From Algisphaera agarilytica (GTDB taxonomy: Bacteria; Planctomycetota; Phycisphaerae; Phycisphaerales; Phycisphaeraceae), in assembly GCF_014207595.1 (NCBI RefSeq), contig NZ_JACHGY010000001.1:1364001-1428000 (forward strand): a DNA stretch of 64,000 bases, written 5' to 3'. The translations under genes and the position numbers were made by a program. The notes beneath the pieces were generated by a model. It did not search any database and was not told where the DNA came from. It saw only the letters and a program-made list of their open reading frames with translations. Shown here in pieces: positions 40,458 to 54,448 of the stretch (positions within the stretch are counted from its first letter, which is position 1; the number at the start of each line of letters is the position of its first letter).

Positions 40458-43316
40458 ATGGCCAAAAAGAAGCCCACCACCTCCAAAACCACCAAGAAAA
40501 AGGCCCCCCGCAAGAGTGCGGGCCGGGCCAAGGCCCCCGATGCCACGGGCAAGCACCTGGTGATCGTCGAATCGCCCACAAAGGCCAAGACTATTAATAA
40601 GTACCTCGGGGACGACTACGTGGTCATGGCCAGCGTGGGTCACATCCGCGACCTGCCCAGCCGCAACCCCAAGGGCGTGAAGAACCCCGTGCCGGGCGTG
40701 GACCTGGAGAACCGCTTCGAGCCGACCTACGAGGTCATGCCCGACTCGAAGAAGACCGTGGGCGAGCTGAAGAAGGCCGCCAAGAAGGCCGCCGACGTCT
40801 GGTTCGCGACCGACCTCGACCGCGAGGGGGAAGCGATCGCGTGGCACTGCGCCCATGCCCTGGACTACCCCGTCAAAGAAGCCAAGCGGGTGGTGTTCAA
40901 CGCCATCACCAAGGCCGAGATCGAAAACGCCTTCAGCCACCCCCGTCCGCTCGAGACCAACCGCGTGGACGCCCAGCAGGCCCGCCGAATTCTCGACCGC
41001 ATCGTGGGCTACCAGGTCAGCCCGCTCCTCTGGAAGAAAGTCGCCGGTGGGTTGAGTGCGGGTCGTGTGCAATCCGTGGCCACGCGTTTGGTGGTCGAAC
41101 GCGAACGCGAGATCGAAGCGTTCATCCCGGATGAGTACTGGAAGCTCACCGGCCTGTTCACCCCCGACATGGCCCAGGCCGGCGCTTTAGGCGACCAGTG
41201 GCGCGACTTCATCAACGTCGGCGAGATGGAAAACGACCGCACCATCAAAGACCAGAACGCCTGGCTGAGCGACCACGGCTGCATCAAGGCCGAGCTCACC
41301 GAATACCAGGGCAAGAAGTTCAACCCCACCGACCGCGACACCGCCCTCGCCGCGGCGCAAGCGCTGGGCTTCGACCTGCAAGACACCAACGCCTGGGAAG
41401 ACCCCAAGGGCAAAGGCCCCGCCAAGAACCGCGTGAAGTACGTGGGCACCGTCAAGCCGAGGGCTGTGGAGCAAGGCGATAAAGCCCCGGATTACTCGAT
41501 CACCGCGATCGAAACCAAGCGCACCAAGTCGCGCCCCAGCCCGCCATTCATCACGTCGACTTTGCAGCAGCAGGCCTCGACCCGCCTGGGCTTCAACCTC
41601 CGCCGCACGATGCGCGTCGCCCAGCAGCTCTACGAAGGCATCGACCTCAAAGGTGCCCGCGGCCAGACCGGCCTGATCACCTACATGCGGACCGACAGCA
41701 CCCACCTGTCCAAGGAAGCGCTCAGCAGCGTTCGCAACTACGTCGGCGATAAACACGGCGACCAATATCTGCCCGAAAAACCCAACTTCTATAAATCGTC
41801 GAATAAGGATGCACAAGAAGCCCACGAGGCCATCCGCCCCACCGACGTGACGATCACGCCCGACTCGATCCGCACCAAGCTCAGCGACGAACAGTTCCGG
41901 CTGTACGACCTGATCTGGCGGCGCTTCGTGGCTTGTCAGATGGTCCCCGCCCAGTGGGACGCGACCGCGGTGACGGTCAAACCTACCGGTGTCGATGCGA
42001 CTTTCCGCGCCACCGGCCGAACCCTCGTCTTCGACGGCTTCCTCAAAGTCATGGGCATGCCCAAGTCCGACGATGTCATCCTGCCCAAGCTCGAAGAGAA
42101 CCAGCAGCTCGGCCCGATCGACCTCGACCCCACCCAACACTTTACCAGCCCCCCCGCCCGCTTCACCGAAGCGAGTTTGCAAAAGAAGCTGGAAGAAGAA
42201 GGCATCGGCAGGCCCTCGACCTACGCCGCGATCATCAGCACGATCCAGGACCGCAAGTACGTCGAAACCCTCACGCCCCGTGACAAACGCCTCAAGGCCA
42301 CCGACATGGGCATGGTCGTGACCGACAAGCTCATCGAAGCGTTCCCCATCATCATGGACGTGGGCTACACCCGCGAGATGGAAGCGCACCTCGACGAGAT
42401 CGAGTCGGAGAACAAGGATTGGCGCGACACGCTGAGCGAGTTCTACGGTCCGTTCAAAGAGAAGCTCGACACCGCTCACGAGACGATGACCCACGCCAAA
42501 GCGGTCAGCGAGCCCGCCCCGCACATCTGCCCCAAGTGCGGCAGCGCGACCGAGTACCGCTTCGGCCGCAACGGGCGTTTCCTGTCCTGCACCGCGTTCA
42601 ACGTGCCGCCCGTGGAAGTCTCGCCCGAAGGCCACCCCGCGCCGTCCAACGGCGGTAAATGGCTTCTCTACAAAGGAAAAGGCAAGGCCCGCCCCAAGGT
42701 GACCACCGAAGACGCCAGCGAGAAAATTCTCTGGTCCAAGCTGACCAAGGAAGACAAGGTCAAGTTCCAGCAGCTCAGCGACGAGATGCCCGAGCCGTGC
42801 AAATACGCCGCGCCGATCGACGCCGAGGGCAATCCGATGGAGCCCGAGCTGACCGACATCCTCTGCCCCGAGGACGGCAAGCCGATGATCCGCCGCACCG
42901 GCCGGTTCGGCCCGTTCCTCGCGTCGTCGAACTACCCCGAGGTGCAGTACATCATCAAGCTCGACCCGAAGAAGGGCCACGTCGTCCTGCCCAAGGCCCC
43001 GCCGATGACCACCGACATCCTCTGTCCGACCTGCGGCGACGAGACCGAGGCGACGCTGTACCTGCGTGACTCGAAGCGTGGCTTATGGATGAGTTGTTCG
43101 CGTTTTCCGAAATGCCGTGGACGCGTGGGTTTTGCCAAGCTCGACGAAGACGTGCAGACGGACTTGGAAAAGAAGTGGAAGATCCACCTCAAGGACAACC
43201 CCATCCCCGATATCCGCACCACCTCCGGCCACGTGATCACCGAAGACGAGGAATACCACCCCATCGTCGCGGGCCAGGAACCCGTGGCCGAAGAGGCGGA
43301 TGAGGTCGCGGTGTAA
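40458..43316 (+). CDS. topA: DNA topoisomerase I
   Basis: 952 residues. Type IA topoisomerase relaxing negative supercoils. A Lys-rich N-terminal tail (2-30), Toprim domain HLVIVESPTKAKTINKYLG and FATDLDREGEAIAWH, and active-site Tyr409 in TYMRTDSTHLSKEAL. The C-terminus has three Cys-based topoisomerase zinc-finger modules (ICPKCGSATEYRFG.., ILCPEDGKPMIRRTG.., ILCPTCGDETEATLY..); the middle one has lost Cys residues. Residues 333-345 (KPRAVEQGDKAPD) are an inserted 39-bp repeat also found six times in the gene at 51311. Confidence 0.97.
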   Translation: MAKKKPTTSKTTKKKAPRKSAGRAKAPDATGKHLVIVESPTKAKTINKYLGDDYVVMASVGHIRDLPSRNPKGVKNPVPGVDLENRFEPTYEVMPDSKKTVGELKKAAKKAADVWFATDLDREGEAIAWHCAHALDYPVKEAKRVVFNAITKAEIENAFSHPRPLETNRVDAQQARRILDRIVGYQVSPLLWKKVAGGLSAGRVQSVATRLVVEREREIEAFIPDEYWKLTGLFTPDMAQAGALGDQWRDFINVGEMENDRTIKDQNAWLSDHGCIKAELTEYQGKKFNPTDRDTALAAAQALGFDLQDTNAWEDPKGKGPAKNRVKYVGTVKPRAVEQGDKAPDYSITAIETKRTKSRPSPPFITSTLQQQASTRLGFNLRRTMRVAQQLYEGIDLKGARGQTGLITYMRTDSTHLSKEALSSVRNYVGDKHGDQYLPEKPNFYKSSNKDAQEAHEAIRPTDVTITPDSIRTKLSDEQFRLYDLIWRRFVACQMVPAQWDATAVTVKPTGVDATFRATGRTLVFDGFLKVMGMPKSDDVILPKLEENQQLGPIDLDPTQHFTSPPARFTEASLQKKLEEEGIGRPSTYAAIISTIQDRKYVETLTPRDKRLKATDMGMVVTDKLIEAFPIIMDVGYTREMEAHLDEIESENKDWRDTLSEFYGPFKEKLDTAHETMTHAKAVSEPAPHICPKCGSATEYRFGRNGRFLSCTAFNVPPVEVSPEGHPAPSNGGKWLLYKGKGKARPKVTTEDASEKILWSKLTKEDKVKFQQLSDEMPEPCKYAAPIDAEGNPMEPELTDILCPEDGKPMIRRTGRFGPFLASSNYPEVQYIIKLDPKKGHVVLPKAPPMTTDILCPTCGDETEATLYLRDSKRGLWMSCSRFPKCRGRVGFAKLDEDVQTDLEKKWKIHLKDNPIPDIRTTSGHVITEDEEYHPIVAGQEPVAEEADEVAV
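41454..41492 (+). repeat. 39-bp coding repeat, copy in topA
   Basis: Encodes KPRAVEQGDKAPD (TopA residues 333-345). Same length, orientation and frame as the six copies in the gene at 51311; a few substitutions mark it as an older copy. It begins AAGCCGAGGGCT and ends AAAGCCCCGGAT, an imperfect palindrome. Confidence 0.9.
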
Positions 43317-51310: not shown

Positions 51311-54300
51311 ATGGATAAGCGTTTTCTCATGGTGGGCGGCGGCCTGATCGCGGCGATCGCGGTGGTGACCCTGGCCATCCTCGTGGGCGGGCCCAGCCAG
51401 TCCAAGCCCGCCGGCCCCAAGCCCACGCCCCCCACCCTGGTTAACCCCGGCATCTCCGCCGAGGACCTCAACAACCCGCCCGTGGGGATCCAGGACCCCG
51501 TCGAAGTCATCCGCGAGTTCGAGATCTACCGCGAAGACGGCGACTCGGTCACCGTGTTCACCGGCGAACAGGTCGTGCCCCAGCCCAACTTCGTCTCCGA
51601 CGTCGTCCGCCCCACCGCCGAGATCCATTCGTCCAACAACCGCGTCATCCGCATCACCGCCGATGCCGGCCGGTTCTACCACCCCGGCAACGAGCCCACC
51701 CGCGGCGAGTTCCACCAGCACACCGTCGTCACCCAGTTCCAAGCCCCCGACGGCGAACGCCTCGACCTGACCACCGACCAACACGTCCAGTTCCGCCTCT
51801 ACCTCGACGAGCTCACCCGCTTCGACCGCGAGAACGGCCAGATCCAATCCGATGGCCCCGTCCGACTTGTCGGCCCCACCATCGACTTCACCGGCCAAGG
51901 CCTCGACCTCACCTTCAACCTCCTGGACCAACGCGTCGAACGCCTGGTCATCGCCCAGGGCGACGAGCTCCGCCTCGCCCAAAACTCCACCTTCACCCAA
52001 CCCGGCTCCCCCACCCCCAAGCCCAGGGCTGCGGAGCAAAGCGACAAAGCCCCGGATACCACCCCTAGTTCCCCAAACCAAACCCCCACCACAACCGCCC
52101 AACCCTACCGCGTCGTCCTCCACGACAACCTCGACATCAACGTCGGCCCCGACAACACCACCCTCACCGGCGATCGCCTGGAAGTCCTCTTCACCCTCGC
52201 CCCCGACGCAGACGACAACCCCAACAACCAACCCAGCGCCGCCAACGCCCACCCCACTCCCCCAACCCCCAAGCCGAGGGCTGCGGAGCGCAGCGACAAA
52301 GCCCCGGATCACCCCCAAACCACCTACTACATCTCCACCACCCCCACCCCCCAACCCCGCGCCCTCCTCACCCCCTCCCCCGACGACATCGTCGTCAAGT
52401 GGACCGGCCAACTCGAACTCAAACCCATCCACCCCAACCCCACCAACCAACCCCCCAAGCCGAGGGCTGCGGAGCAAAGCGACAAAGCCCCGGATCCCGA
52501 TTCCCCCCCCGCCCCCGACCAAGCCGTCCTCACCCTCCACGGCACACCCGCCGTCCTCAACAACCCCGCCGAAGACCAGCACATCACCGCCGCCTTCGTC
52601 GGCTACCGCACCGACGGCAAAACCGTCTTCGCCCATAGCTCCGACTCCCACGCGCTGACCATCAGTTCCCCCGAGCTCGGCAACCTCCAAGCCACCGCCC
52701 TCACCCTCAGCGATACCGAAGGCGCAGGCCAAATCCTCGGCCCCGGCCAACTCAACGCCGACGAACAAGGCCTGCGCGTCAGCTTCACCGACCGCCTCGA
52801 ACTCGACTTCCACCGCGACGCCGATGACGCGTTGTCCGACCTCAAGTCCGCGACCTTCCACGGCAACGTCAACGCCGTTGCCGAGTCCGACGACCCCGAC
52901 CAGCAACTCGACCTGACCAGCCAATCCCTCGCGCTCACCCTCACCCCCGACGCCGAGGGCAAGGTCCAACCCTCACACCTCCAGGCCCTGGGCAACGCCC
53001 AACAACCCGTCCTCGCCAAACAACCCAACACCACCTTCCAAGCCAACTCCCTCGACGTCGACCTCGCCCCCAAGCCGAGGGCTGCGGAGCAAAGCGACAA
53101 AGCCCCGGATACAGACACCGACCAAATCCAAATCACCCGCCTCCGCGCCCTGGGCAACATCACCGTCCAGCTGATCGAAGAGCAAACCACCCTCACCGCC
53201 CACGCCCTCGACGCCGACCCCAACCGCGGCCGACTCGAACTCTTCGGCGAAAACGACCAGACCTTCGCCACCCTCACCCGCGACGGCGCGACCCTCGCCG
53301 GCGTCCACCTCATCCTCGAAGAAAACGCCCAGACCGCCGACGCCCTGGGCCCCGGCACGTTCTCCGCCGACGTCGACGAAGACGACCCCACCGCCAAGCT
53401 CAACATCGCCTGGACCCAGTCCATGAACTTCGACAACACCCAGGGCAAAGCCAAGTTCGTCGGCAACGTCCGCTCCGCCTCCACCTCGGCGACCGACGAC
53501 ACCTCCCTCGACGCCCACACCCTCGCCCTCGAGTTCGTCCCCCAAGACTTCACCAACGAAAACGACCCCAACCCGAGCAATGCAGACTCCCCCAAGCCGA
53601 GGGCCGAGGATCGCAGCGACAAAGCCCCGGATCAAACCACCCCCGCCGCCCTCGATCTCCGCCGCGCCCACGCCATCGCCGACCCGGACAACGACGACCA
53701 GCAGGTCAACTTCACCGCCCAGACCTTCGCCGAAGATCAGCCCCAAGCCGACAAGCCGCTCACCCGCGTCACCCTCATCGGCCGCGAACTCATCTTCATC
53801 AATCAGCCGCCCAACCTCACCAACCAGACCACGATCGACGACAACATCACCATCGAACAGGTCATCGTCCCCACCCGCGGCCGAATGCTCCTCGAAGACT
53901 ACCGCACCGCAGAAAAGCCGAGGGCTGCGGAGCGCATCGACAAAGCCCCGGATACCCCCAGCGCCTCCCCCATAAACTTCGCCGGCCGCGGCGTCACCCT
54001 CTTCGCCTGGGAAGACCAGCTCACCCTCGACGCCCAGGCCAACGACCTGCGTCTCGAGCAAGACGTCTTCATGCTCCACCGCCCGGACGACGGCAGCGAA
54101 GCGATCAAGCTCGACGCCCAACGCCTCGTCGCCGACCTCACCGAGACCGGCGGCCTGGGCGCCTACCTCAGCCAGGACAACTCCGCCCCGCAGGCCCAGA
54201 TCCGCAAGGTCAACGCCGACGGCCGGGTCCGCGTCGCCCAAGGCCCGTCCAACGTCGTCGCCGACCACCTCGAATACGAAGAGTCGAAGCGCACCGTGCT

Positions 54301-54448
54301 GCTCTGGGCCGAGCCGCGTCGTGAAGTGGTCCTGAACCGCGACGACCAACCCAACGGCCGAACCACCGCCCGTGCCCTGCGATGGGACCTCGACAACGAC
54401 CTCTTCACCGCGATCGACCCCGGCACGGGCGTGGTCCCGGTGGAGTAA
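51311..54448 (+). CDS. OstA/LptC-like envelope protein carrying six coding repeats
   Basis: 1045 residues, far longer than ordinary LptC or LptA (about 190). An N-terminal membrane helix (FLMVGGGLIAAIAVVTLAIL) is followed by a Pro-rich linker. Then come many beta-jellyroll-type strands of the LPS-transport OstA kind, such as GEFHQHTVVTQFQAPDG, VRLVGPTIDFTGQGLDLTF, ATFHGNVNAVAE, AKFVGNVRSAS and INFAGRGVTLFAW. It probably spans or bridges the periplasm in lipid or LPS transport. Six 13-residue inserts (KPRAAEQSDKAPD type) start at residues 237, 321, 383, 588, 762 and 869, mostly in Pro-rich linkers between beta modules. Confidence 0.7.
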   Translation: MDKRFLMVGGGLIAAIAVVTLAILVGGPSQSKPAGPKPTPPTLVNPGISAEDLNNPPVGIQDPVEVIREFEIYREDGDSVTVFTGEQVVPQPNFVSDVVRPTAEIHSSNNRVIRITADAGRFYHPGNEPTRGEFHQHTVVTQFQAPDGERLDLTTDQHVQFRLYLDELTRFDRENGQIQSDGPVRLVGPTIDFTGQGLDLTFNLLDQRVERLVIAQGDELRLAQNSTFTQPGSPTPKPRAAEQSDKAPDTTPSSPNQTPTTTAQPYRVVLHDNLDINVGPDNTTLTGDRLEVLFTLAPDADDNPNNQPSAANAHPTPPTPKPRAAERSDKAPDHPQTTYYISTTPTPQPRALLTPSPDDIVVKWTGQLELKPIHPNPTNQPPKPRAAEQSDKAPDPDSPPAPDQAVLTLHGTPAVLNNPAEDQHITAAFVGYRTDGKTVFAHSSDSHALTISSPELGNLQATALTLSDTEGAGQILGPGQLNADEQGLRVSFTDRLELDFHRDADDALSDLKSATFHGNVNAVAESDDPDQQLDLTSQSLALTLTPDAEGKVQPSHLQALGNAQQPVLAKQPNTTFQANSLDVDLAPKPRAAEQSDKAPDTDTDQIQITRLRALGNITVQLIEEQTTLTAHALDADPNRGRLELFGENDQTFATLTRDGATLAGVHLILEENAQTADALGPGTFSADVDEDDPTAKLNIAWTQSMNFDNTQGKAKFVGNVRSASTSATDDTSLDAHTLALEFVPQDFTNENDPNPSNADSPKPRAEDRSDKAPDQTTPAALDLRRAHAIADPDNDDQQVNFTAQTFAEDQPQADKPLTRVTLIGRELIFINQPPNLTNQTTIDDNITIEQVIVPTRGRMLLEDYRTAEKPRAAERIDKAPDTPSASPINFAGRGVTLFAWEDQLTLDAQANDLRLEQDVFMLHRPDDGSEAIKLDAQRLVADLTETGGLGAYLSQDNSAPQAQIRKVNADGRVRVAQGPSNVVADHLEYEESKRTVLLWAEPRREVVLNRDDQPNGRTTARALRWDLDNDLFTAIDPGTGVVPVE
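52019..52057 (+). repeat. 39-bp coding repeat, copy 1
   Basis: KPRAAEQSDKAPD at residues 237-249 of the OstA-like protein. One base differs from the commonest form (GCCCAGGGCT for GCCGAGGGCT). Confidence 0.95.
52271..52309 (+). repeat. 39-bp coding repeat, copy 2
   Basis: KPRAAERSDKAPD at residues 321-333; Gln changed to Arg. Confidence 0.95.
52457..52495 (+). repeat. 39-bp coding repeat, copy 3
   Basis: KPRAAEQSDKAPD at residues 383-395, identical to copy 4 over 39 bases. Confidence 0.95.
53072..53110 (+). repeat. 39-bp coding repeat, copy 4
   Basis: KPRAAEQSDKAPD at residues 588-600; interrupts a beta-rich region. Confidence 0.95.
53594..53632 (+). repeat. 39-bp coding repeat, copy 5
   Basis: KPRAEDRSDKAPD at residues 762-774; the most changed copy in the middle (GCCGAGGATCGC). 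Confidence 0.93.
53915..53953 (+). repeat. 39-bp coding repeat, copy 6
   Basis: KPRAAERIDKAPD at residues 869-881. Confidence 0.95.

Follow-up and report, generated by a model that had tools for sequence, protein, structure and literature searches.

Several described systems place short palindromes in bacterial genomes in ways that resemble the one reported here. Repetitive extragenic palindromic (REP) sequences and REPINs are short bulged hairpins of about 20-65 nucleotides (nt) with an unpaired 5' tag, present in many dispersed copies and associated with TnpAREP (RAYT) transposases. In a REPtron, an HUH-Tyr gene has inverted pairs of its own palindrome on both sides, and the tag is GTAG or GTGG (or CGTC). 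Rickettsia palindromic elements (RPEs), of about 100-150 bp, stand in frame within conserved protein genes, and no enzyme is named for them in the accessible sections of the sources. In-frame RPE and REP insertions, REPtrons, GTAG and CGTC tags and atypical structures for TnpA-Y1 groups 2.6 and 3 are already known from the accessible sections of earlier work (PMC3767692, PMC2229807, PMC12306157, PMC8266576, PMC3733652, PMC6006769). TnpA-Y1 class 3, according to the accessible text of Quentin et al. (2018, PMC6006769), has Planctomycetes among its hosts, a REPtron-like layout and atypical flanking structures. Here we describe a family of palindromes of 33-48 nt in Algisphaera agarilytica. It was first seen in a 64,000-nt stretch of the genome (the window) as a 39-base repeat centered on the gene at 51311-54448, the subject of the preliminary description. 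The system is REP/REPtron-like; its tag and its enzyme branch are new, and its copies lie in frame and sense in conserved genes. In the most probable reading, the 39-mer is REP-like and non-autonomous, and a Y1 HUH transposase from an unrecognised branch of the TnpA-Y1/RAYT superfamily spreads it in trans.

The window holds seven copies at exactly the starts first reported, all on one strand and in one frame, each encoding KPRAAEQSDKAPD or a close variant. They and their two host genes are as follows.

40458..43316, + strand: topA (DNA topoisomerase I), element host (PF01131, E 2.5e-113)
41454..41492, + strand: 39-nt palindromic element inside topA, reading KPRAVEQGDKAPD (covariance model 60.6 bits)
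51311..54448, + strand: weakly LptA/LptD_N-like host gene with six element copies (E 0.023, below cut-off)
52019..52057, + strand: element copy, 39 nt, KPRAAEQSDKAPD (62.1 bits)
52271..52309, + strand: element copy, 39 nt, KPRAAERSDKAPD (68 bits)
52457..52495, + strand: element copy, 39 nt, KPRAAEQSDKAPD (67.4 bits)
53072..53110, + strand: element copy, 39 nt, KPRAAEQSDKAPD (67.4 bits)
53594..53632, + strand: element copy, 39 nt, KPRAEDRSDKAPD (55.9 bits)
53915..53953, + strand: element copy, 39 nt, KPRAAERIDKAPD (63.6 bits)

A 36-base core with up to three mismatches matched the window six times, against 0.00 expected (100 shuffles); the topA copy, more diverged than the other six, was detected by the genome-wide searches. 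As to the hosts, topA is certain, whereas the OstA/LptC-like identity first given to the 51311-54448 gene is plausible, its product matching Pfam LptD_N (LptA/LptD N-terminal) at 15.4 bits, below the cut-off of 20.4.

The preliminary description placed the copies in two unrelated genes and proposed a search of both strands of the genome. The search of the A. agarilytica assembly (G000; 4.17 Mb, 6 contigs) showed that the family reaches far beyond these genes. The 36-base pattern with up to three mismatches gave 21 matches (10 forward, 11 reverse) and a 16-base core pattern gave 35, the reversed control giving 0 in both cases. A covariance model, whose E-values are rough by the tool's own statement, found 42 copies at E<=0.00125 on both strands, and an extra copy at 3028639 came from a looser pattern. 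A 43rd model match (1904295, E 0.108; antisense in a gene), which would be one antisense case, was removed as chance before counting. Copies are 39, 33, 45 or 48 nt long, once 44, and a typical copy is AAGCCGAGGGCTGCGGAGC-NNN-GCGACAAAGCCCCGGAT.

As read, the hosts in G000 are hisB, hisC (two copies), pdxH, pyruvate dehydrogenase E2, topA, the OstA-like gene (six), valS, murA, mnmA, smc (two copies), priA, tsaD, an SprT-like gene, a protein kinase and others; topA, murA, hisB, pdxH, mnmA and tsaD are backed by databases, and the remaining names are a reading of the proteins. In PDB alignments of murA, hisB, pdxH, mnmA and tsaD the element peptide stands at a gap or break, which leaves the junctions unfixed. 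Genes are tolerated rather than preferred, because 29 of the 42 copies lie within called genes, which account for a fraction of 0.80 of the sequence examined. Of the original proposal of a mobile element adapted to coding sequence, the mobile palindromic family has stood, but it is not confined to coding sequence (0 of 22 copies examined are genic in the related genome G024). The murA, tsaD and priA proteins of G000 (L139, L148, L145) also contain another short in-frame repeat peptide (SEIRNQKSEI, SEIRNPKSEI or KSEIQNPKS).

Relatives lack the inserts. The topA peptide is missing from every one of 29 aligned relatives, in which the loop is shorter by 6-9 residues. The hisB peptide, a net insert of 11 codons, is absent in 13 of 13, with a native run GYGIDPPAI or close to it in G001, G002, G015 and G005. 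Both hisC inserts are absent in 13 relatives, and unrelated extra residues stand at the first site in G006, G009 and G012 and at the second in G012. Since the aligned relatives are without them, the topA, hisB and hisC copies are insertions. The six peptides of the OstA-like gene are absent in the G001 and G002 counterparts, and the G015 gene has two diverged element copies of its own; this comparison used G001, G002 and G015 only, the G020 row being in the wrong frame and some rows truncated. The preliminary description had named two findings that would speak against an inserted element, namely the same peptides in orthologues or no copies elsewhere in the genome; the peptides are absent there and the copies are plentiful here.

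The distribution is patchy. With the covariance model at E<=0.1, a scan of 51 genomes of the family found 42 copies in G000, 38 in G015, 28 in G024, 23 in G008, 14 in G065 and one each in G061, G072 and G004, and a looser pattern placed the element architecture in nine of the 51. Neither the model nor the looser pattern matched anywhere in G001 and G002, same-genus drafts that are 78 and 91% complete. The exact pattern had no match in GTDB r220 contigs, a set that may not include the window's own genome, and none in 60 relatives; the patchiness is visible only by the covariance model and the looser pattern.

The imperfect palindrome first noticed at the ends of the repeat is real and constrained, as covariation reveals. 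Across 47 distinct 39-mers from six genomes (the G004 row excluded), 95.0% of cells are paired and 28 cells are doubly changed, against 5.3 in shuffles (0 of 500 as high), and slid-partner structures bring pairing down to 23.6-42.4%. Compensatory examples are GGGCT/AGCCC changed to GCCCT/AGGGC and to GCGCT/AGCGT. Compared with the 39-nt form, the 33-nt form is shorter by three bases on either side of the inner loop, and facing GA steps, capable of tandem G-A mismatches, are retained in the sequences of most copies of both forms. Folding individual copies as DNA gave no greater stability than shuffled sequences (z about -1), so it is the covariation that supports the hairpin. The hairpin tip of 44-48 nt copies (e.g., G000:C1:2759947, 2414223, 2408733) varies freely (CCCC..GGGG, different loops), as if exchanged or grown.

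The search for a transposase or RAYT gene with the same ends, also proposed at the outset, was successful. An open reading frame of 180 codons outside the window (G000:C1:2408079-2408618), encoding a 180-aa Y1 HUH-like protein, lies between the inverted element pairs 2407980(-)/2408038(+) and 2408677(-)/2408733(+). In 27 aligned proteins including that of G000, H97, H99, W135 and Y156 are invariant, and I157 and H160 of the Tyr motif YIxxH are nearly so. Fourteen of the 27 match PF01797 at E<=0.01, and the family profile has eight PDB matches at E<=10, every one an IS200/IS605-type transposase or TnpArep (best E 0.013). A model of the L320 homologue, from a Phycisphaeraceae metagenome-assembled genome, gave four Foldseek hits at E<=0.001, three to ISDra2 TnpA and one to RAYT 4er8 (query TM 0.38-0.47). 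Homologues occur in 26 of the 51 family genomes, including all nine with the element architecture. In G008 the homologue is broken into pieces and lies between two element copies. For sister palindromes, a direct enzyme link is seen in G065, G027 and G032; in G027 a 32-nt sister palindrome matches 118 times, the listed matches are mostly inverted pairs with starts about 48 nt apart, and such pairs also stand on both sides of that genome's own homologue. The layout makes a strong, if not chemical, case for the link between enzyme and element, and points to movement of the hairpin by the 180-aa enzyme.

A gene read as nucleoside phosphorylase adjoins the enzyme gene in both G000 and G008 (L142:2986-3978, L276:2127-3203), and this neighborhood suggests that the enzyme gene may hold an old common position. 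In an Rfam search, the enzyme locus showed two tRNAs and four hairpin matches that fell below their gathering scores. G000 has a second homologue (L318, G000:C1:2773035-2773544), adjoined by different AAGCCCGC hairpins. Three further Y1_Tnp genes found in G000 by Pfam search (L052-L054) were rejected as the mover: no element model match lies within 1.5 kb on either side, their loci show only partial, chance-like pattern matches, and the presence of Y1_Tnp genes does not follow the distribution of the element. One of them, L052 (G000:C1:317470-317829), has GTAGGGTGGGC...GCCCACC palindromes on both sides, like a GTAG-type REPtron.

Flanking palindromes are a property of the enzyme family. In 25 of 30 homologue loci, which are related and not fully independent, the two 260-base flanks share a repeat above 100 shuffles (L306 and L310 barely), and flanks taken 740-1000 bases away share one in 0 of 30. 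No common flank repeat was found in L295, L308, L311, L313 and L314; at L308, with its broken gene, the left element copy lies beyond the 260 bases compared. When all 256 four-mers were tried as the 5' tag of a hairpin and ranked among those with at least eight flank cases, AAGC was the most enriched (48 in 22.8 kb of flank versus 17 in 131 kb elsewhere). TCAG was second in ratio with few cases (9 and 3), GTAG (2 and 6) and CGTC (1 and 15) were rare in flanks, and GTGG was not reported separately. By a strict hairpin rule, an AAGC hairpin stands on at least one side in 20 of the 30 loci and on both sides in 11.

The element thus resembles REPs/REPINs in its short bulged hairpin, unpaired 5' tag, size and dispersed copies, and REPtrons in the inverted pairs around a gene with conserved HUH histidines and catalytic Tyr. 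The profile, PF01797 and Foldseek matches place the enzyme with the TnpA-Y1 (IS200/IS605-like) superfamily. However, the tag is AAGC, and YIxxH differs both from the Y---NP of class 2 TnpAREP and from class 3, published with a CnGA foot and Y----Q. In the accessible part of that paper the TnpA-Y1 group table has 11 rows, with Tyr motifs containing Q or NP, and YIxxH matches none of them (PMC6006769). REPs are mostly extragenic, which holds in G024 and G008 (6 of 17 genic) but not in G000 and G015 (19 of 29 genic); the many genic copies are all sense, and in G000 single copies outnumber pairs. Insertions of GTAG/CGTC REPs are likewise described for unrelated genes, among them repair and tRNA genes (Di Nocera et al., 2013, PMC3733652), but these REPs carry another tag, and in the accessible text of that paper most REPs are intergenic and no sense-only rule is reported. 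The comparison with RPEs made in the preliminary description fits the outcome, palindromes in frame in conserved protein genes, whereas the closest mechanism is that of REP/RAYT: the present elements are 33-48 nt long, belong to Phycisphaeraceae and have a candidate enzyme.

On the model of TnpAREP, the enzyme would bind the single-stranded form of the hairpin, with its unpaired 5' tag AAG(C) and 3' end GGAT, cleave after a C and insert the element at pyrimidine-rich sites. We infer both the cutting and joining of the hairpin by this enzyme and the single-stranded intermediate. Insertions with an open sense frame encoding a short charged peptide (KPRAAERSDKAPD) would then persist in loops of conserved proteins. 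The flanks in G000 are C-rich, and 34 of 42 copies there have a C at -1; this is in line with the obligatory 3' C of strand transfer by TnpAREP, as given in the accessible sections of PMC8266576.

Several observations weigh against this mechanism. The G000 protein goes unmatched in Pfam and NCBIfam at E<=10, the middle residue of its HUH is threonine and the residue between the histidines varies in the family, and the L320 fold model is weak (pLDDT 62, single sequence). Y1_Tnp genes are common (46 of 51 genomes). The direct enzyme-element link is limited to G000 and to G008, where the gene is broken; in the element-rich G015 and G024, the homologue loci L310 and L306 are without an element copy and the other homologues lie at least 2.4 kb from any listed copy. 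The -1 C, the kind of target-site preference anticipated at the edges, is absent in G008 (6 of 17). A length divisible by three, originally taken as an adaptation to coding sequence, is seen in 53 of 56 genic copies but also in 51 of 62 non-genic ones, and says little by itself because such lengths are common outside genes too. Finally, the junctions are not pinned to single bases: compared with the nearest relatives, hisB has gained 11 and topA 8 codons, not 13.

The orientation of the copies is one-sided. Across eight genomes 118 copies were classified against gene calls made by codon usage, which are approximate. These comprised model matches in fetched regions (29 of 38 in G015, 22 of 28 in G024, 17 of 23 in G008, 5 of 14 in G065), with weak matches kept (e.g., G004, E 0.038; G015 71771, E 0.0625); the 3028639 copy and other extra looser-pattern matches lie outside this set. 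Fifty-six are fully genic (29 of 42 in G000, 19 of 29 in G015, 6 of 17 in G008, 1 of 5 in G065, 1 of 1 in G061; none of 22 in G024 and of one each in G072 and G004). Every one of the 56 is sense; 48 are read in one frame, 5 and 3 in the other two. Between co-directional genes no more than 300 nt apart, 25 of 28 copies are sense (7/7 in G000, 6/6 in G015, 9/11 in G024, 2/3 in G008, 1/1 in G065). For spacers up to 2000 nt the count is 29 of 36 (10 of 16 in G024, whose wide gaps may hide genes), only copies with a called gene on both sides being taken. From flank composition, a model expects 59-83% of genic and 60-71% of spacer copies to be sense; these predictions fall short of the observed values, so composition accounts for part, not all, of the bias.

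The sense bias may have one of two causes, both compatible with spread by the Y1 enzyme. With about an even chance, selection alone is responsible: insertion would be random and mainly the charged sense frame would survive, the antisense peptides being hydrophobic and the 33-nt and G015-type 39-nt forms having a stop in one sense frame. The sense frame-0 peptide indeed has a hydropathy of -2.0 to -2.4, against -0.7 to +1.1 in the antisense frames, and both the predominance of frame 0 among genic copies and the lack of any in G024 agree with selection. Against it, untranslated spacer copies are mostly sense as well, beyond the flank prediction and in 13 of 13 cases in G000 and G015 together. 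More tentatively, the new HUH branch may insert into the non-template strand exposed by transcription, giving copies sense to the transcript in genes and spacers alike, which would serve as ready-made in-frame linker peptides in the former; transcription rather than replication would then set the strand. Replication direction was rejected as the cause, since opposite-strand copies 5.7 kb apart (1721747, 1727483) are each sense to their own gene.

Spread without an enzyme, by recombination or template switching between short matches, is improbable. It would suit the net topA and hisB inserts, shorter than the element, and the APD already present at the element's end in some topA relatives (GCC CCG GAC in G005), because of which the exact topA junctions are uncertain; the orthologue alignments proposed at the outset thus gave clear presence and absence, but not base-exact edges. 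On the other hand, copy flanks share C-richness and, on inspection, no evident extended similarity, and the Y1 gene bears the same hairpins on both sides. A miniature inverted-repeat transposable element of a DDE transposase, which would also be short, palindromic and dispersed, is very unlikely: direct repeats of at least three bases, as expected of target duplications, flank 9 of 42 junctions in G000 against 6.15 in shuffles (largest 11), and 0 of 29 in G015, 1 of 22 in G024 and 1 of 17 in G008. Local duplication or a conserved host-protein domain, suggested by six copies within one gene, can be practically dismissed, as the preliminary description had argued of duplication, given the many unrelated hosts, the differing immediate flanks of the six and the relatives without the peptides.

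Among the papers listed by searches of an open-access library, none had a title or abstract dealing with AAGC-tagged palindromes or a sense-only rule, and AAGC is absent from the main text of PMC3733652. For the in-frame insertion of palindromes into conserved genes, an outcome known from Rickettsia, where the mover is unnamed in the accessible sources, the system offers an enzyme candidate together with a substrate that can be tested. To the known tag types it adds AAGC, and to the transposases a branch whose G000 member escapes standard family models. The sense-only rule, which largely holds in untranslated spacers, makes transcription-guided transposition directly testable.

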